Positions 2,011 to 15,127 of a stretch of 26,771 nucleotides of DNA are shown here, one piece after another (the first letter of the stretch is position 1; each line of letters starts with the position of its first letter). Origin of the DNA: a virus; the IMG/VR virus record IMGVR_UViG_3300048912_000063, positions 1 to 26,771 of that record, one strand, 5' to 3'. Under the pieces are notes generated by a model that searched no databases, had not been told where the DNA came from, and was given only the letters and a program-made list of their open reading frames with translations. The position numbers and the translations under genes were made by a program.

Positions 2011-3102
2011 TCAATCCTCGTCATCATCGAGATCGAACAGTATGGGTTCGCCGTTGATGCTGATCCCGACGTTGATGCCGGGCGTGGTCTCGATGTTGAC
2101 GTAGACGCGCGGCGGCAGCGGGCCCGGCCGCATCGGCGGCGGCGGCTGCTCAGTGAAGTCCTTGGGGAAAGGGAAGATCACCCGCACGATGTCGTCGGTC
2201 ACTATCCCGAGCCGGTGCATCAGTCCCGGGGAAATGTCGGCGACGCGGCCGGTGTCCATGTGCGGGCCCCAGTCCGCCGGATAGGCCCGGTAGCCGCGCC
2301 CGCCCGGGTATCCGACCCAGGCCATTTCCCGCAGCAGCATGTCCCGTGGCGTGCGCTCGTAGTCCCAGCGGCAGGCGACGTAGTCGACCGCCGGGTCGAG
2401 CCGGCGCGCGAGGCCGGTGGTGCCCACCGGCTGCGCTGGCAGGAACAAGGCCGGCTGGTCGCTTATTTCATCGATGAAGGCGAGGCCTTCGTCGGGTGCC
2501 ACGCCGGTGTCGAGCGGGCCGCCGAAGCTCGATACTTTGCCGGTGATGTCCAGCAAAGCTGCTGTCGCATTACTTTGGACGTTTGAGAGTATTCCGGCGA
2601 TGGCTTCGCAAATGGAGTCGAAATGCTCGGCGTAGAGATCGCAGTCGGCCTCGCTGTCGACGAAGCAGACCTCAATCAGAACCGCCGGCATTTCCGTGTT
2701 GTTCAGGAAAAACAGATCATTTCGCAGCTTCGGGCCACGATTGATCAGACCGCTGCTGCCGGCAATGGCTGCGGACAATCTGCCGGCCAAGTCGTTTTGC
2801 GTGACGTAGAGCACCTCGGTGCCGCGGGGGTCAGTCGTATGCTGGTCGCTGCAATTGAAATGGATGGAGACATCCAGATCGCGAGCTATGCTGTTGTGCC
2901 AGTCGACGATGGTATTCAAGTTCGTATTCTGGTCGCGTGACGTCATGTCGACGAACGAGTAACACTTGCAGCCTGGGCGCTGGTGGGTGAGCCGGGCGGC
3001 AATCATAGCCACCATCCGCCGATTTTCGGCAAATTCATCGAGGATGTCGGCGGCGCCGGGGCACTTGGCTGAGTGCCCGGCTGACAGGCAAATTACCGTC
3101 AT
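2011..3102 (-). CDS. Endolysin: N-acetylmuramoyl-L-alanine amidase (Amidase_3-like) with C-terminal DPBB-like domain
   Basis: The 363-residue product starts at ATG 3102, overlapping the upstream holin-like stop by ATGA. Residues 1-185 carry the zinc amidase pattern: H10 in SAGHSAKCPGA, E23 or E26 in DEFAEN, H81 in SIHFNCSDQH, and the catalytic-type E144 in LIEVCFVDSEAD. The enzyme would cut the MurNAc-L-alanine bond of peptidoglycan in the periplasm. Roughly residues 225-305 form a second domain with CRWDYERTP, PADWGPH and GRVADISPGLMHRLGI, resembling the double-psi beta-barrel of RlpA-like wall proteins. The C-terminus is acidic (DLDDDED). There is no signal peptide, so release depends on the small membrane proteins just upstream. 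It is the last gene of the late operon. Confidence 0.85.
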   Translation of the reverse strand: MTVICLSAGHSAKCPGAADILDEFAENRRMVAMIAARLTHQRPGCKCYSFVDMTSRDQNTNLNTIVDWHNSIARDLDVSIHFNCSDQHTTDPRGTEVLYVTQNDLAGRLSAAIAGSSGLINRGPKLRNDLFFLNNTEMPAVLIEVCFVDSEADCDLYAEHFDSICEAIAGILSNVQSNATAALLDITGKVSSFGGPLDTGVAPDEGLAFIDEISDQPALFLPAQPVGTTGLARRLDPAVDYVACRWDYERTPRDMLLREMAWVGYPGGRGYRAYPADWGPHMDTGRVADISPGLMHRLGIVTDDIVRVIFPFPKDFTEQPPPPMRPGPLPPRVYVNIETTPGINVGISINGEPILFDLDDDED

Positions 3103-3299
3103 CGCAATCTCGGCATTTGCAACGATCCCCCGCCGCCGACCTGCAGCAGGATGCTGATCAGGACAATGACGCAGACTACCACGAAGATGACGATCACCAG
3201 CTTGTCGATCGGCGGCGGCAGCGGGAACTGCTGCAAAATCCAATAGATCAGCGCGGCGACGATGACGAAGATCGCCAGATAGATAAGCAATTGGATCAT
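3099..3299 (-). CDS. Holin-like small membrane protein
   Basis: A 66-residue protein with two transmembrane helices, about residues 3-23 (IQLLIYLAIFVIVAALIYWI) and 33-53, separated by the short loop QQFPLPPPIDK; the tail ends GGGGSLQMPRLR. Start ATG 3299 forms an ATGA overlap with the preceding 59-residue gene and its own stop forms ATGA with the amidase, so the three genes are coupled. A two-helix protein immediately before an endolysin is the usual setting of a class II holin, which makes the inner-membrane hole that lets the amidase out. The same two-span, PLPPP-loop architecture is also seen in bacterial small membrane proteins of unknown role, so holin is inference from context. Confidence 0.7.
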   Translation of the reverse strand: MIQLLIYLAIFVIVAALIYWILQQFPLPPPIDKLVIVIFVVVCVIVLISILLQVGGGGSLQMPRLR

Positions 3300-3475
3300 G
3301 TGGTGCGCTCCAGGCAGGTTCGGATCAGCGCGTCGCGGCGCTCGATCGCGTTGGCTACGTAATACAAGGTCAGCGCCATGGAGACGATGACGAGCGCATT
3401 GAGGATGACGATCGCCAGCAGGAACGGCGTCCCCCGCAGCGCCTCGATCGCCTCCTTCACCCCGGCGACGGTCAT
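3296..3475 (-). CDS. Small single-span membrane protein, lysis cassette
   Basis: A 59-residue ORF, translated by hand from ATG 3475. It opens with an amphipathic segment (MTVAGVKEAIEALRGTP), then one transmembrane helix FLLAILVLNALVIVSMALTL-like in character at about residues 18-40 (the sequence reads LLAIVILNALVIVSMALTL), then a charged tail with ERRD and ERTT. ATGA overlaps link it to the tail-fibre gene upstream (3472-3475) and the holin-like gene downstream (3296-3299). The coupling at both ends and the position in the lysis block strongly support a real gene. It could be an antiholin, a second holin or an inner-membrane spanin component; the short periplasmic or cytoplasmic tail makes a full i-spanin unlikely. 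Confidence 0.65.
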   Translation of the reverse strand: MTVAGVKEAIEALRGTPFLLAIVILNALVIVSMALTLYYVANAIERRDALIRTCLERTT

Positions 3476-9602: not shown

Positions 9603-9902
9603 TCAGTACTGCGGTTGCCCAGGCATCGGCGGATTTGGCAACCGCGGCGGCCCCATCGGCGCCGGCAGGCCGGCGCCGCTCATTGGCCCGGCCTGCGGTG
9701 TCATGCCGCCTGTAGGCGGTACGCCGGCCATGCCCGGCATGCCGGGCGGCGGCGCTGCGGCGGCGGGCGGCGCGCCGAGCGCCGGCATAGCCGGCTGTGG
9801 CATTGCCGGCAGCGGCGGCGCCTGCGGCGGCGGCGAGGCAATCCGCATCAGTGCTTGCGTGATCGCGTCGCGTCCATTGCCGGGAGTGTTGCCGTACGCC
9901 AT
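9603..9902 (-). CDS. Pro/Met/Gly-rich small protein
   Basis: 99 residues. ATG 9902 shares its A with the upstream TGA (TGATG), so translation is coupled to the GNAT gene. Residues 1-24 are an ordered-looking head (MAYGNTPGNGRDAITQALMR); the remainder is disordered, with repeated PPPQAPP, MPQPAMPALGAPP, PPGMPGMAG and a final PMPGQPQY. No domain recognised. The head looks like a conserved anchoring helix and the Pro-rich tail like a flexible linker. It sits between the enzyme cassette and the S74 virion protein; structural or assembly role is a guess from neighbours. Confidence 0.6.
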   Translation of the reverse strand: MAYGNTPGNGRDAITQALMRIASPPPQAPPLPAMPQPAMPALGAPPAAAAPPPGMPGMAGVPPTGGMTPQAGPMSGAGLPAPMGPPRLPNPPMPGQPQY

Positions 9903-10363
9903 CAGGCTGCCTCTTGGTGTTGCATCAGGCCCACGCGCTGATGGATGCGCCGAGTTTTCCAGACGTCATCGGTGAGCGTCGCCACGACGCCGTCGCGGTC
10001 GCGGCCAAATAATCGTTCCACGGTGACGCGCTTGTACCCAAGCGCCTTTAGCTGACGTAACAGCCGCGCGTTGTCTGCCGACACGCGCATTACGACCATC
10101 TGGCATCGCGCATCAACGAACGGGTAAACGTGCATCAGCCGCAGCGTCGTGCGCGTGAGCCAGCGCGGATCGATGGCGGCGCCGGAAATCTCGATGGTCG
10201 CCGCCTCGGGGTCATAGTTGTGATACACCAGCCCGCCGATCAGCCGGCCGCCGTCGACCACACCTAGCGTCATAATCTTGGTGCCGAAGCCGCGCTCGCA
10301 GTGCGGGATGTGCGCCGCCACGAACCTCGCGACCACATCGTTATGCCCGATCAGGTAGCGCAT
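9902..10363 (-). CDS. GNAT-family acetyltransferase
   Basis: 153 residues from ATG 10363, which lies 13 bases inside the end of the upstream DUF6817-like gene; a longer upstream extension in frame has Arg-rich shadow composition and is rejected. The fold pattern is GNAT: GTKIMTLGVVDGGRLIGGLV (strands 2-3), then YDPEAATIEISGAAIDPRWL (strand 4), RTTLRLMHVYPF (helix 3), CQMVVMRVSADNARLLRQLK and ALGYKRVTVERLF (strand 6 and last helix). Acetyl-CoA would be the donor. The pyrophosphate-binding loop between strand 4 and helix 3 does not show a clear RxxGxG/A, so activity is not certain. It is the third gene of the 2OG oxygenase, DUF6817, GNAT set. Phage GNATs of this kind are common beside internal virion genes; substrate unknown. 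Confidence 0.8.
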   Translation of the reverse strand: MRYLIGHNDVVARFVAAHIPHCERGFGTKIMTLGVVDGGRLIGGLVYHNYDPEAATIEISGAAIDPRWLTRTTLRLMHVYPFVDARCQMVVMRVSADNARLLRQLKALGYKRVTVERLFGRDRDGVVATLTDDVWKTRRIHQRVGLMQHQEAA

Positions 10364-10815
10364 AGCGTCTGCTCCAGGCTCTCGCGCGCCCCTTTGCTGA
10401 CGCCGACCGCCGCCATGATCGGCAGCCAGCGCGAGCGCGAGTTCTGCTCGATCAGGTTCGCCATTTCGATTTCGCGAAGTGACCTCCAGATGGCGTTGTC
10501 TTTCCCTGGGTCCGCGGGGACGAATACCCGCGGCCGGTCGGACGTGCAGAAGCGGTAAACAAGCTCTTCCGACAGGATGCCGATCAGTCCGGCGATCGTG
10601 CCGCGGTCGTCCAGCGGCCAGCATTGCCGGCGGAATTTGTTAGTTCCGTAGATGCTATGGAACAGCCCGGCATTGCAGATCGTGTCGCTGTTACCCCAGA
10701 GCTTGAGCAGGGTGTGGGTACCGCGCAGGTGATCGTACAGCGAGCGTCCGCTGTGCTTGGCCCGGAGCGCGCCGGCGCGGTTGATCAGAAAGTCCTGGTG
10801 CTCCGGTCTGATCAT
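10351..10815 (-). CDS. DUF6817/HD-domain-like protein
   Basis: 154 residues. I chose ATG 10815, which forms an ATGA overlap with the oxygenase stop; a GTG at 10821 is an alternative. Visible pattern: H21-S-G-R-S-L-Y-D-H29-L-R-G-T-H34-T-L-L-K-L-W-G-N, then C47-N-A-G-L-F-H53-S-I-Y-G-T-N-K-F. This His-rich DHL..TH..LL..WG / AGLFHSIYGT arrangement is what I recall for DUF6817 proteins, which look like divergent HD metal-dependent phosphohydrolases. The canonical HD dipeptide is not obvious, so catalysis is unproven. The rest is helical, with a second conserved-looking part FRRQCWPLDDRGTIAGLIG. It is the middle gene of the enzyme cassette. Substrate and role unknown. Confidence 0.75.
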   Translation of the reverse strand: MIRPEHQDFLINRAGALRAKHSGRSLYDHLRGTHTLLKLWGNSDTICNAGLFHSIYGTNKFRRQCWPLDDRGTIAGLIGILSEELVYRFCTSDRPRVFVPADPGKDNAIWRSLREIEMANLIEQNSRSRWLPIMAAVGVSKGARESLEQTLCAT

Positions 10816-11468
10816 TCGCACTCTTCCTTGATAGTCTTAAAGGCGAGGGCAATGCGAAGCTCCGGGCACGATCGCGACACGCCGCGGGCAATGTGCGGCA
10901 TGCAGCCCGGGAATGACACCAGACGATTTGGTTTCGGATAGATCGAAGTAATAATATCGGTCTGGTCGTCGTTGAAGAGCACCGTCTCGCCGCCCCAGTC
11001 TGGCGACCAAGCCGCATGCGGGTAGTACACCGCGGTGCGGGCATTGGGCTTCTTGGAGTCGGTGTGGATCGCGCCCTCGCCGCCATAGGCGTGGGCGTTG
11101 GCGTAGGCGCGCATCAGGGTGTGGCCGCGGAACACGCTCTGCGAAAGGTTCAACCAAAGCTCGAACACCAGCGGCGCGTTCTTGAGTAGCTCATCGGCGC
11201 AGGCGTAGGGTTTCTCATCGCGGGAATTGCGGTGCCCGGCGAAATGCTTGTGCCAGAAGCTGAACAAATCGCGCTTGCGTGAACTCTTCCAGCCAAACTT
11301 CCAGCCCGGGGCCTGCAGGAACGCGAACAGCGCCGCGCGCTTGGGCTCGCGCAGCACGTTGTCGACCACGACCACGGCGCTCGAGGCCGGCGCCGCTTTC
11401 GCTGGCGGGTGCGGTGGCGGCCATAAATCAAGCTGTGGGTTGCTGCTGACGAGCGCGGGTTTATTCAT
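10812..11468 (-). CDS. 2OG-Fe(II) oxygenase (prolyl 4-hydroxylase-like)
   Basis: 218 residues from ATG 11468, which overlaps the end of the Gly-rich gene by 8 bases. The frame stays open much further upstream, but that extension is an Ala-rich shadow of the Gly-rich gene. The double-stranded beta-helix metal triad is visible: H135 and D137 in EGAIHTDSKK, H192 in GCMPHIARGVS, and R205 (ELRIALAF) for the 2-oxoglutarate carboxylate; GGETVLFND before the second His is typical of prolyl-hydroxylase-like enzymes. An N-terminal region (residues 32-60, VVVVDNVLREPKRAALFAFL) matches the start of such domains. The enzyme would use Fe(II), O2 and 2-oxoglutarate in the cytoplasm. Substrate unknown; the Pro/Gly-rich protein coded immediately upstream is an attractive but untested candidate. 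Confidence 0.85.
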   Translation of the reverse strand: MNKPALVSSNPQLDLWPPPHPPAKAAPASSAVVVVDNVLREPKRAALFAFLQAPGWKFGWKSSRKRDLFSFWHKHFAGHRNSRDEKPYACADELLKNAPLVFELWLNLSQSVFRGHTLMRAYANAHAYGGEGAIHTDSKKPNARTAVYYPHAAWSPDWGGETVLFNDDQTDIITSIYPKPNRLVSFPGCMPHIARGVSRSCPELRIALAFKTIKEECE

Positions 11469-12708
11469 CGTCGTCCCCGTCGTCATCGTCACCACCACCG
11501 CCGCCGTCGCCGCCACCCTCGCCGCCGCCACCGCCGTCGCCCTCGCCGCCGCCTGCACCCTCGCCGCCGCCTGCGCCCTCGCCGCCGCCCGCGCCCTCGC
11601 CGCCGCCGGCGCCCTCGCCTCCGCCTGCGCCTGCACCACTGCCGCCGCCTGCGCCCTCGCCGCCTTCACCGGCGCCGGCCCCCTCGCCGCCATAGCCGCC
11701 CTCGCCGCCGCCGGGGCCTTCCCCGCCATAGCCGCCTTCGCCATAGCCGCCTTCGCCATAGCCGCCGCCCGCGGGGGCGCTGTCACCGAAGCTGTCACCG
11801 AAGCTGCCGTAGCCGCCCTCGGGGGCGTCATCGAACGCGTAGCCGTAGCTCTGCCCCTCTAGGGACGCCGCCATTGCCGATAGCTGATCGTCGGTCAGCG
11901 AACTCTGCGGGCCGGGCGTGTCGGGCGCCGCGGTAGGCGCGGCCGGAACGTCCCCGGGAATGTCGGTCTCAATATCGCCAATGGTGACGGTGGCTTCTTC
12001 ACCCGGGCTGTGCCCGGAGCCCGGCGCGGCGCCATGGCCGCTGGATTGCCCACTGCTACTTGGGCCGCCGCCGCCGACGAAGCCGCCACCGCCGCCGCCG
12101 CCGAAGCCGCCCCCGCTAACCCCGCCACCGCTGCCGGCGCTGCCGCCAAGGCCTTCACCGCCGCCACCACCTGCCGCGCCGCCAGTGAGGTCAAGGCTCT
12201 GCGTCGGGAAGAACGGCGAATTGGGCGGCAGCGTCAGCGGGGGGTTCGGTATGTTCGGGAACGGCAAGGATGGGACAAAGTTACCGAACGTGGTCAAGCC
12301 GGGCAGTGGATTGTTGAAAGCCCGGTCGCCCAAGAACGACACCGGACTGACCGGCGGCAGATTGACCGCTTCGCGGTTCGCCTGCTCGGGGGTTTGGCCC
12401 CGGCTCGGAGCCGGCGCTGTCGGTGCGAGCGGCGGCTGAAACTCGGGTGGTACGTTCGGCGGCGCCGGAGGCGGCGGGCTCTGCAGGTTGTGAACGTCGC
12501 TTTTCGTCGTGTTGTTTGGCGCCTCGGGCGCCAGCGTCGGGTCGAGCACGACATCCTGGAAGCCGCCCATCGGCCCCAATGAAAAACCGTTGCCGGGGGC
12601 GCCGGCCGGCGCCGTGTCATCGGTCGGGCCGAACTGCGAGCCGGGGTCGCCGCCGTAGTACTGCCGCATCAATTCGCGGATGATATCCTCGCGGCTCTGC
12701 AACGACAT
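11461..12708 (-). CDS. Pro-rich then Gly-rich repeat protein with acidic tail
   Basis: 415 residues, ATG 12708 with GGAG 10 bases upstream. Residues 1-20 are an amphipathic helix (MSLQSREDIIRELMRQYYGG). Residues about 25-175 are Pro-rich (LQSPPPPAPPNVPPEFQPPL, NIPNPPLTLPPN). From 175 the chain is Gly-rich, interrupted near 245-310 by an acidic segment (TVTIGDIETDIPGD). After that come FGDS repeats, GYGEG repeats and at least five GGGEGA units, ending GGGDDDDGDDDE. No known domain. Its place after the nozzle gene suggests a tail or virion component, possibly a flexible connector, but disordered proteins of this kind cannot be assigned. The last 8 bases overlap the 2OG oxygenase gene. Confidence 0.7.
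   Translation of the reverse strand: MSLQSREDIIRELMRQYYGGDPGSQFGPTDDTAPAGAPGNGFSLGPMGGFQDVVLDPTLAPEAPNNTTKSDVHNLQSPPPPAPPNVPPEFQPPLAPTAPAPSRGQTPEQANREAVNLPPVSPVSFLGDRAFNNPLPGLTTFGNFVPSLPFPNIPNPPLTLPPNSPFFPTQSLDLTGGAAGGGGGEGLGGSAGSGGGVSGGGFGGGGGGGFVGGGGPSSSGQSSGHGAAPGSGHSPGEEATVTIGDIETDIPGDVPAAPTAAPDTPGPQSSLTDDQLSAMAASLEGQSYGYAFDDAPEGGYGSFGDSFGDSAPAGGGYGEGGYGEGGYGGEGPGGGEGGYGGEGAGAGEGGEGAGGGSGAGAGGGEGAGGGEGAGGGEGAGGGEGAGGGEGDGGGGGEGGGDGGGGGDDDDGDDDE
11538..11627. repeat. Five tandem 18-bp units coding GGGEGA
   Basis: Five adjacent 18-bp units with few substitutions (11538-11555, 11556-11573, 11574-11591, 11592-11609, 11610-11627), in frame in the Gly-rich gene. Copy number could change by slippage without shifting the frame. 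Confidence 0.85.
11731..11760. repeat. Two tandem 15-bp units coding GYGEG
   Basis: GCCGCCTTCGCCATA at 11731-11745 and exactly again at 11746-11760, with a partial unit before it. In frame within the Gly-rich gene, encoding the GYGEGGYGEG stretch. Confidence 0.85.
11779..11802. repeat. Two tandem 12-bp units coding FGDS
   Basis: GCTGTCACCGAA occurs exactly twice in tandem (11779-11790 and 11791-11802), coding for the FGDSFGDS segment of the Gly-rich protein. Confidence 0.85.
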
Positions 12709-12719
12709 GATGGCGGCTC

Positions 12720-14417
12720 CTATACGTTGATGCCGGCGCGCCCGAAGGTCGCGCCGATCGCGAGCAGTTCGACCTGCGGCAGTGATTGTTGCGCGATTGT
12801 TACTTGCGTGACCGGCGCGTGTGCGAAACCGGTCTTGCCGATCGATACCCAGTGCGTGTTGCGTACCGGCGCGCCGAACGGCGTCGGCTGGTCCCAGCGC
12901 CCAGCGTCCCAGAGCGTCTCGTCCCAGACCTCGCGAATACCCGGGTCGGGGCCGGCGGGGGGCGGCGGCGGCACCGTCACGACGTAGTCGATCGCGGCAT
13001 TCAACTGCGGAATGAACGGCTGCATCGCCTGCGCGCTGAAAATCGCGCGGCTTTGATGCCAGACGTTTTGCGCCGATGGCGCCTGGAACGTTTCCCAGCC
13101 GCCGACCAGGGTCGCCACGTATGGCAAACCGTTATCGGTGCCGCCGATCTCGCATTGGATGATGCGCCCGTCCGAGGTGCCGTAGAACAACTGGTCGCGC
13201 ATCTTGACGAAGCAGCGCGCGTCATAACCGACGAAGCGACACCATGCGGCGGTGGCGTTATTCATCACCGCGCAGTAACGATGCCCCTCTAAGCCTCCCG
13301 GCCAAGTAACGAAGATGGCGCCGTAGTCATCCCAGCGTTTCATCGTCCAGGGCAGGTTGGATTTCAGCGCCACTTCCTGCCGCCACATGGATCGTATCGG
13401 GTTGGTGATCAGCGCCAGATCGAGCGTGCCGGCGTCCTTGGTAATCGCCTGACCCAATGGCACGATGCCGTCCACCGTCATGATCAGGATATCGCCGCCG
13501 ATCGGCATATGCGCGTTCATGCCCATCGGCCGGCCGATCGAGTAGACGCCCTGCTGCTGCCAGCCGGTCGGGTCTGCGGGATTGTTACCGCTGAAGATTA
13601 TCAAATCGCCTTCTGTAGTAACAAACACGCACTTGTCGTCGGTGCCCGAGCCGGTGTCGCCGCTCCATGTCGCGCCGAACAGGAGGCTGCCGCCGCGGGG
13701 GGCGCTGCCGCCGAGCGGGATCAGTCCGAGCGCGCCCTGGTACGAGTCAATACCGAGGAAATAGGCATTCATGGTGCCGCCCTCGATGAAGAACAATCGA
13801 TTGCGGTACTTCCAGACGTAGGTGAGGTTGCGACCATGCGCGACGTCGCTGCCGGCGGGGCCGGTAATCTGATCGGCGTCGAACGCAGTCCAGGTTGCGC
13901 CATCGTAATGCAGCGGCGCGTCGCCGGCGTCGTTGACGGCAATGAGATGATTGCCGCTCATGTTTGTTAGTTGCGTCGCCGCGTAGTTGCCGCTGTTCTG
14001 GCCGCTCTTGGCGACGGTCGGCAGTTGCGCCGAGACGTTCCAGAGAATTGCCGGCTGGCCGGCGAACATCTGATGAATGTTATCGCCGGACACGTACTCG
14101 AAGGCCGACACGATTGGATACCGCAGCGGCGACGACATCGGCGGCACGGTGGCGTCCCAGTCGCTGATATCCCACTCGCCCTCGTCCCAGGCGTCGAGGC
14201 CGTGCAGGTCGCACCACACTTTGGTGCCACCGCGAAGTTTTACTCCCCGCAGCGTCGACACCCAGTTGTCCTGCACCAGCGCTCCGCCCGGCGTCATGAA
14301 GGCCTGGTTCTCGTTCTGCACCAGCCCGCGCGTCGGCGCCGGCAACGTCACCGTCTGTAAAACATTAGCGTAGCCCTGCTGGACCGGCTGGCGGCGGAAG
14401 GCGGCATAAGCGGTCAT
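12720..14417 (-). CDS. Tail nozzle / DNA-stabilisation protein (P22 gp10-like)
   Basis: 565 residues, ATG 14417 in an ATGA overlap with the adaptor gene. The N-terminus (LPAPTRGLVQNENQAFMTPG, then GALVQDNWVSTLRGVKLRGG) is the typical opening of podovirus gp10-like proteins, which form the hexameric nozzle under the adaptor. The middle shows propeller-type strand repeats (VFVTTEGDLIIFSGNNPADP, LFYGTSDGRIIQCEIG). Two unusual triple WDxxx motifs occur, at residues 77-88 (WDEGEWDISDWD) and 498-509 (WDETLWDAGRWD), the latter after a Pro-rich linker PPPPPAGPDP. The C-terminal region is beta-rich. The order adaptor then nozzle supports the call. Length is somewhat above P22 gp10, consistent with the extra C-terminal part. 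Confidence 0.75.
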   Translation of the reverse strand: MTAYAAFRRQPVQQGYANVLQTVTLPAPTRGLVQNENQAFMTPGGALVQDNWVSTLRGVKLRGGTKVWCDLHGLDAWDEGEWDISDWDATVPPMSSPLRYPIVSAFEYVSGDNIHQMFAGQPAILWNVSAQLPTVAKSGQNSGNYAATQLTNMSGNHLIAVNDAGDAPLHYDGATWTAFDADQITGPAGSDVAHGRNLTYVWKYRNRLFFIEGGTMNAYFLGIDSYQGALGLIPLGGSAPRGGSLLFGATWSGDTGSGTDDKCVFVTTEGDLIIFSGNNPADPTGWQQQGVYSIGRPMGMNAHMPIGGDILIMTVDGIVPLGQAITKDAGTLDLALITNPIRSMWRQEVALKSNLPWTMKRWDDYGAIFVTWPGGLEGHRYCAVMNNATAAWCRFVGYDARCFVKMRDQLFYGTSDGRIIQCEIGGTDNGLPYVATLVGGWETFQAPSAQNVWHQSRAIFSAQAMQPFIPQLNAAIDYVVTVPPPPPAGPDPGIREVWDETLWDAGRWDQPTPFGAPVRNTHWVSIGKTGFAHAPVTQVTIAQQSLPQVELLAIGATFGRAGINV

Positions 14418-15127
14418 GGCGTTGGCAGCGCCCAGGGATAGGCCGTCACCGGATAGGTGCTCGACGACGTCCGGCCGCCAATCAGGATCGGCGCCGGCTG
14501 GTCGCGGCCGGCGACCGACCAGAGCGCGTCGGAATAGGTCCCCATTGCTTCGGCATAAGGCGACCCTTTGCTCTCCTTCCAGACCCAGATCAGCATCAGC
14601 TTGAGCAGCCGCTCATCGAGCTTGCAGGTGTCGTCGTCGGCAGTGAATTGCGTATCCGTCAGGCCGGTGGCGGCGACGTTGATAATTTGGTTGGACAGGT
14701 ACGCGAACGTCGCGGTGGCGCCCGCCGCCAGGATCGGATTGATGTAGATGCGGCCGCCGATCAGGATGTAGGCGCCGCGGCTGTCCCAGAAGCCGGAGGC
14801 CTTGCGGCGCAGCCATTCATCGTAGCTGTTGATGTACACCAGCGGGATAAAGCTCGAGCGCGAGGTCCACACGTTACTGTCAAGCAGCAGCCGCAGGAAG
14901 TCGCTAGGCAAGGCGAAGCTCTCGGCGACGCCGTCGCCGGTCACAGTCGCGGTCTTGATCAGCGCCGACCAGTCGCGGGTGTCGCGCGCGAGCCGCTGCG
15001 CGCATTCGTTGGCGTGGGTCAGTAGCTCCTGCTGCGTGCGCTGGTTATTGATGTTGCCGAACACGGTGGTCACGCGCTCGACGCCGACCACCTGACAAAC
15101 ATCCTGCACGACGCTGAGGAGCGACAT
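14414..15127 (-). CDS. Head-to-tail adaptor (gp4-like)
   Basis: 237 residues, ATG 15127, three bases after the upstream stop. The pattern is that of podovirus adaptor proteins that bind the portal ring: an N-terminal helical part (LLSVVQDVCQVVGVERVTTV, ELLTHANECAQRLARDTRDW) followed by a beta insertion with SFALPSDFLRLLLDSNVW and GGRIYINPILAAGATATFAY, then LDERLLKLMLIWVWKESKGS and a final helix with YSDALWSVAGRD. I identify it from this layout and from its position between capsid-side genes and the nozzle gene, to which it is coupled by ATGA. No enzymatic motif; P22 gp4 has muramidase activity, but nothing here supports that. Confidence 0.75.
   Translation of the reverse strand: MSLLSVVQDVCQVVGVERVTTVFGNINNQRTQQELLTHANECAQRLARDTRDWSALIKTATVTGDGVAESFALPSDFLRLLLDSNVWTSRSSFIPLVYINSYDEWLRRKASGFWDSRGAYILIGGRIYINPILAAGATATFAYLSNQIINVAATGLTDTQFTADDDTCKLDERLLKLMLIWVWKESKGSPYAEAMGTYSDALWSVAGRDQPAPILIGGRTSSSTYPVTAYPWALPTP

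Follow-up and report, generated by a model that had tools for sequence, protein, structure and literature searches.

In the PhnY-PhnZ and TmpA-TmpB systems, phosphonates are oxidised in two steps, the first catalysed by a 2OG hydroxylase and the second by an HD-fold diiron oxygenase. The locus described here, which lies in a 26.8-kb window of virus DNA (the whole stretch that was analysed), likewise combines a 2OG-Fe(II) enzyme with an HD-fold protein, a member of DUF6817, and both TmpB and PhnZ are among the structural neighbours of the latter. However, the phage-type pair differs from the phosphonate systems in having natural fusions, a peptide-like context and a lost HD doublet; the structural similarity of DUF6817 to TmpB and PhnZ is low (TM 0.34-0.47 by query length), and no evidence for a phosphonate was found with the 2OG-DUF6817 pair. 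Another point of comparison is provided by the clusters for RiPPs and bacteriocins. Bacterial homologs of the pair sit with a double-glycine (GG)-leader precursor and a C39-peptidase ABC exporter, whereas the substrate proposed for the phage is a 415-aa virion-operon protein without a GG leader, and no transporter was seen among the window ORFs examined. The literature searched contained no description of a 2OG-DUF6817 pair among RiPP or bacteriocin tailoring enzymes, no mention of DUF6817, and nothing on point about a 2OG/HD enzyme pair in RiPPs or about hydroxylation of phage virions. Finally, the phage 2OG domain resembles the HIF and collagen prolyl hydroxylases (PHD2, P4H) in fold and facial triad, but its candidate segment is of Gly/Asp rather than Pro, and it has a constant HD-like partner.

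Organization of the virion operon

The minus strand of the window carries a podovirus-like virion operon, which includes a portal gene, a scaffold-like gene, the major head protein gene (phrog_9953), two tail genes, the Gly-rich P0004, three enzyme-like genes reported in an earlier note on this DNA, the Pro-rich P0005 and large internal virion-like genes. The three reported genes, all on the minus strand as are their neighbours below, encode the 2OG-Fe(II) oxygenase P0001 (218 aa, 10812..11468; PF13640) and the DUF6817 HD-fold protein P0002 (154 aa from its ATG, 10351..10815; PF20680), which are the two halves of the pair considered here, and the GNAT-like P0003 (153 aa, 9902..10363; PHROG 4470), a virion-operon protein outside the pair. 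Upstream of this cassette, a tail-tube-B-like (gp12-like) gene (12720..14417) serves as a context marker; it was recognised from a homolog named tubular tail B in phiGT1 and from profile matches in relatives. Between the two lies the gene for the Gly/Pro-rich P0004 (415 aa, 11461..12708), the proposed substrate, which has the C-terminus ...GGGDGGGGGDDDDGDDDE; its C-terminal ∼26 codons (11461..11540) encode an acidic Gly/Asp/Glu tail, the proposed modified segment. The small Pro-rich protein P0005 (9603..9902) provides context only.

ORF and profile analysis confirmed the three ORFs together with the family assignments and the overlaps of 4 bp (ATGA; 2OG/DUF6817) and 13 bp (DUF6817/GNAT), as described in the earlier note. 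Its coupling of the cassette to Gly/Pro-rich and Pro-rich neighbours is also real: the 3' end of P0004 and the start of the 2OG gene share 8 bp, and the GNAT stop and the P0005 gene have one base in common. DUF6817 has an alternative GTG start at 10821, and its residues are numbered here from the ATG at 10815. Purifying selection was found on the three reported ORFs (dN/dS 0.14-0.32), and likewise when these two neighbours were included (0.12-0.32). It should be noted that the overlaps by themselves say little about whether the genes act together, because the entire operon is equally tightly packed; for example, the tail genes at 15127-14414 and 14417-12720 likewise overlap, by 4 bp.

An N-terminal motif, R[DE]xIxx(A/E)LM, is common to P0004 (REDIIRELM) and P0005 (RDAITQALM), with 0.005 matches expected per shuffled set, and motifs of this type may be docking or packaging signals. 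None of the remaining window translations showed the motif; a similar one, RDAIAxAMM/SIM, is C-terminal in the N-tailed homologs of P0004 in genomes G006, G008, G010 and G012. Elsewhere in the window, P0009 (22536-23804), the product of a polyvalent-protein-like gene of the virion operon, gave a weak ADP-ribosyltransferase (ART-PolyVal) match, and P0019 (995-1624, plus strand) has a signal-peptide-like start and a sorting/anchor-like C-terminus (VPAPALGAGLSGILSACIGVWALQRRRRSRV), with no Pfam match.

The oxygenase, DUF6817 and the GNAT-like gene

P0001 matched PF13640 with 33.5 bits (cut-off 27). The metal and 2OG residues, whose loss in close homologs the earlier note had named as counter-evidence, are intact: the iron triad H135, D137 and H192 is kept in 96/96 homologs and the 2OG-binding R205 in 94/96. 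The fold was judged from an AlphaFold model of a fused homolog (L139; pLDDT 93.8), for which Foldseek returned HIF prolyl hydroxylase 2 (PHD2) as the best match, with PolD also high. Because PHD2 is the nearest fold of this fused model, the 2OG half looks peptide-acting, and P0001 is predicted to be a peptidyl-hydroxylase-like 2OG-Fe(II) oxygenase. The closest named NCBIfam model is that of the FlmC family (NF052475; E=9e-18, residues 31-212), but membership of this family was rejected, as P0001 reached 65 bits and the curated cut-off is 240. The label 'DNA endonuclease V' (phrog_274) for the 2OG family was judged to be wrong because the cyanophage members carry HxD...H...R and align with P0001; this RefSeq/PHROG naming was seen on 2OG proteins in L019, L028 and other cyanophage records, and is probably a propagated mis-annotation. 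A role in anti-phage defence was also considered and set aside, PADLOC having returned just a generic 2OG match.

The match of P0002 to PF20680 (DUF6817) was strong (89.7 bits, cut-off 25.2). In its high-confidence AF2 model (pLDDT 93.5), Foldseek recognised an HD fold, with small alarmone hydrolases (MESH1/Rel) at the top (prob about 1.0, TM 0.58-0.65) and TmpB and PhnZ lower, although all of these matches were weak, none having an E below 0.001. H21, H53, S54, Y56 and E83 are kept in 161/161 DUF6817 sequences and H29 in all but one (99%). Profile comparison placed the DUF6817 segment AGLFHS opposite the HD motif AGLLHD (E=0.0026), and the second metal ligand is therefore replaced by serine. 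The family thus departs from the canonical H...HD...D ligand set: the doublet is H-S in 161/161 sequences, and the final Asp of the motif is Asn in 15/15 bacterial and 70/71 viral pair members, with one gap. In the group of bacteria having DUF6817 only, position 120 was Asp rather than Asn in 28/65. Three invariant or near-invariant His residues and Glu83 are available in the sequence as candidate ligands, versus the six-ligand diiron set, and PhnZ-like diiron chemistry is, as judged from the sequences, not supported by the known ligands.

The 2OG oxygenase and DUF6817 are a true recurring enzyme pair. Among 85 non-redundant loci, viral and cellular, that were sampled and contained both genes, the two were always on one strand and at most 1.2 kb apart; the distance was at most 150 bp in 71 loci when either order was counted and in 65 with the 2OG gene first. 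Fourteen ORFs were natural fusions, including 11 of the 2OG::DUF6817 type and 3 of the DUF6817::2OG type, and the pair recurs in podoviruses, T4-like cyanophages, a 324-kb phage contig and bacteria. In bacteria having DUF6817 only, TauD, a different 2OG enzyme, was the commonest neighbour family (6/62 neighbour proteins scanned), and NRPS parts were neighbours as well; loci with DUF6817 but no phage-type 2OG gene often have TauD-type enzymes or NRPS parts nearby, as in the group that includes L061, L074, L075, L081 and others. Another phage group (L182-L184) has the gene order DUF6817 then 2OG, with the pair one gene downstream of a very Gly-rich (35%) tail-fibre-like protein.

By contrast with these two, the GNAT-like gene does not belong to the unit. 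P0003 matches the PHROG 4470 acyl-CoA N-acyltransferase (E=3e-35), but it is below every Pfam GNAT cut-off (best Acetyltransf_8, 14.4 versus 27 bits), and a clear (Q/R)xxGx(G/A) CoA loop was not seen by eye. Its homologs in Sulfitobacter, Rhizobium, EBPR and Microcystis phages lie between the tail-tube-B gene and an S74/internal virion gene, where neither oxygenase nor DUF6817 was found alongside, and one record labels such a homolog head assembly protein. T7 gene 13 has the same operon position, after the gene 12-like gene and before the internal virion genes, but homology was rejected, there being no PF11090 match and an hhalign probability of 0.7% with T7 gp13 as a single sequence. In 80 loci sampled via GNAT homology, so that presence of the pair did not steer the choice, the pair was beside GNAT in 12 and absent in 68, and in nine near-complete genomes with the pair located elsewhere GNAT still adjoins tail-tube-B. 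The trio is therefore not a unit, and GNAT is a fixed podovirus virion-operon gene that happens to adjoin the pair. The earlier note had suggested that the three genes act together, perhaps on virion proteins or a host target, and had proposed a search for their co-occurrence. The suggestion of coupled enzymes that modify a neighbouring protein holds for 2OG and DUF6817, and is strengthened by their fusions and by the candidate substrate found with them. For GNAT it fails, since related phages carrying only part of the trio, the observation that the note itself would have counted against it, are the majority of the GNAT loci.

Acidic Gly/Asp tails in phages and Gly/Asp-rich segments in bacteria

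P0004, encoded directly upstream of the 2OG gene, ends ...GGGEGGGDGGGGGDDDDGDDDE. When podoviruses were clustered by tail-tube-B at 80% identity and the protein between tail-tube-B and GNAT was scored, an acidic Gly/Asp tail was present in 11/11 clusters with the pair versus 2/37 without it (p=3.5e-9, a value that, like the next one, ignores kinship and overstates independence because the clusters share descent). Considering that contigs without the pair are often fragments, the comparison was also made for near-complete contigs of at least 35 kb, where the tail was found in 15/15 with the pair versus 1/14 without (p=2.1e-7). The tail also tracks the pair in nine genomes in which the two are about 7-30 kb apart, being C-terminal in G001, G002, G003, G004 and G011 and N-terminal in G006, G008, G010 and G012; in a phage-like region of a Burkholderiaceae genome (L315), it belongs to another protein, whose gene immediately precedes a fused pair. 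The adjacent protein did not differ in Pro content between viruses with the pair and those lacking it (0.111 versus 0.108, p=0.97), which argues against proline as the discriminating substrate feature, whereas terminal Asp/Glu differed (p=1.5e-6). Thus, hydroxyproline, for which the earlier note had proposed to examine particles, is not the favoured product.

There are exceptions to this association. Five contigs without the pair (L209, L218, L221, L222 and L257) have GGW-ending Gly/Asp or Gly/Glu tails; in the tailed 51-kb contig L218 neither enzyme was found, and when the tailed, pair-less contigs were scanned for a stray 2OG gene, without a positive control, there was no match. High-GC coding, which may favour Gly/Asp codons, also counts against the link between tail and pair. 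In addition, a Gly/Asp tail was not seen near the pair in many viruses outside the podovirus group (cyanomyoviruses and marine T4-like contigs), so that in the T4-like contigs either the substrate differs or the tail hypothesis is incomplete.

Gly/Asp-rich segments also accompany the pair in bacteria. In Burkholderia, Rhodoferax, Sphingomonas and Caulobacter relatives, it lies beside C39-peptidase exporters and GG-leader proteins with Gly/Asp-rich mature parts, as in the precursor MRELTLEELELVAGG followed by DDTGDIVVTGDRGGGDWGDFGDFGDFGDYGDYGD. In the family survey, Gly/Asp-rich ORFs occurred at 7/15 pair loci versus 0/18 loci with DUF6817 only (p=0.0015), the other 8/15 having no such ORF at the threshold used; C39-ABC or membrane-fusion genes likewise occurred at 7/15 versus 0/18, and GG leaders were found at five of these seven loci and at L030. 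ORF calls in these high-GC loci were heuristic, and for the Gly/Asp segments the frame used was the one continuing from a conserved upstream part. Locus L030, from Burkholderia territorii, starts with a Gly/Asp-rich small peptide (weak microcin-V Pfam match), a TraB-like protein and a C39-peptidase ABC exporter, and continues in this order with 2OG, DUF6817, a membrane-fusion protein and an outer-membrane protein. The Sphingomonas and Caulobacter clusters encode several proteins that start with MRELTLEELELVAGG or near variants, continue with Gly/Asp/aromatic repeats (GDFGDYGDTGGGDGGGG) and end in differing C-terminal domains, one of which is a weak SLT transglycosylase match. In Rhodoferax and Xanthomonas the GG-leader proteins are shorter, and their mature part begins GDGDG or DGDG; another pair, at L055, has SagB-like peptide maturation dehydrogenases on its flanks. 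Gene sets of this kind are characteristic of the maturation and export of RiPPs or bacteriocins.

GG-leader families with Gly/Asp/aromatic linkers and differing C-terminal domains, one of them SLT-like, were noted in L331 (2692-4859, with a Sphingomonas precursor at 2692-3456, and 14427-14978), L330 (241-1754) and L326 (15303-17901), where they adjoin C39-ABC exporters and a DUF6817::2OG fusion; these proteins look like exported antibacterial effectors or bacteriocins. Three Burkholderiaceae pair loci (L310, L313 and L305) adjoin pilin-like genes and have neighbour proteins with C-termini in DGG, GDG or long GGD repeats.

Possible targets and a proposed two-step modification

On balance, we lean towards the view that the 2OG enzyme and DUF6817 are a two-component oxidative system acting on the tail of P0004, with P0004, not GNAT, as the third member; the pair probably alters the acidic Gly/Asp tail on the neighbouring phage protein. 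The 2OG enzyme would hydroxylate residues of the acidic Gly/Asp/Glu tail, most likely Asp and possibly Gly, Asp being preferred over Gly or Pro because, besides glycine, it is common to the phage tails and the bacterial cores. DUF6817 would then act on, or present, the same segment by means of an altered HD site of three histidines and a glutamate; this order of steps is modelled on PhnY-PhnZ and TmpA-TmpB, in which the HD-fold oxygenase follows the 2OG hydroxylase. Any role of the altered tail in the virion would be a further inference. Bacteria, in turn, would apply the pair to Gly/Asp-rich segments of GG-leader proteins exported by C39-peptidase ABC transporters, from which it would follow that the phage pair is a RiPP-like maturation module for a virion-operon protein. 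A more tentative, though quite possible, generalisation is that the pair is an undescribed two-step peptide modifier of Gly/Asp segments, both in bacterial GG-leader toxins or bacteriocins and in phage virion-operon proteins; the modification would then be a new oxidative one, for example on Asp.

The pair might instead be a two-step or two-component oxidase for some other target, such as a virion or host protein, a cofactor or a small molecule, the tails being merely linked to lineage. The T4-like and cyanophage contigs that have no obvious Gly/Asp tail near the pair fit such an explanation, as does the location of DUF6817 near TauD and NRPS parts in bacteria having DUF6817 only, which points to small-molecule or amino-acid chemistry. 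We nevertheless regard it as rather unlikely, since the tails accompany the pair even at unlinked positions, at either end of the protein, on other carriers and in bacterial secretion clusters. Collagen- or HIF-like prolyl hydroxylation of the Pro-rich P0004 and P0005 would agree with the fold, for which PHD2 is closest, and with the Pro-rich neighbours; it becomes improbable in view of the unchanged Pro content of the adjacent protein, and it is Gly/Asp, not Pro, that the bacterial precursors share.

Two other explanations separate or regroup the enzymes. DUF6817 could be a MESH1/SpoT-like hydrolase of nucleotides or alarmones that interferes with host signalling, with the 2OG enzyme separate, as might be expected from its closest solved folds; given the H-S doublet in place of an intact HD catalytic motif, the Asn in place of the conserved Asp and the 14 fusions with a 2OG domain, this seems very improbable. 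As for a three-enzyme cassette that combines hydroxylation with acetylation, GNAT does adjoin and overlap the pair in the window and close relatives, and a GNAT-like ORF is also seen by eye downstream of the pair in a Polaromonas locus (L031). However, the scarcity of the pair at GNAT loci, the adherence of GNAT to tail-tube-B when the pair is elsewhere, the sub-threshold Pfam scores of P0003 and its unclear CoA loop leave this explanation hardly any credence.

The preferred reading, in which the pair acts on Gly/Asp segments, has several implications. The third member of the cassette had been misassigned when judged from gene packing alone. If the reading is true, the pair would serve genome miners as a marker of a new class of secreted proteins that are rich in Gly/Asp and modified. 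DUF6817, a domain of unknown function, can now be linked to a partner that is concrete and testable and to a motif as candidate substrate, both in phages and in bacteria of several phyla, and phages, if the same holds, would tailor their own virion-operon protein with a type of enzyme that bacteria use on secreted peptides.
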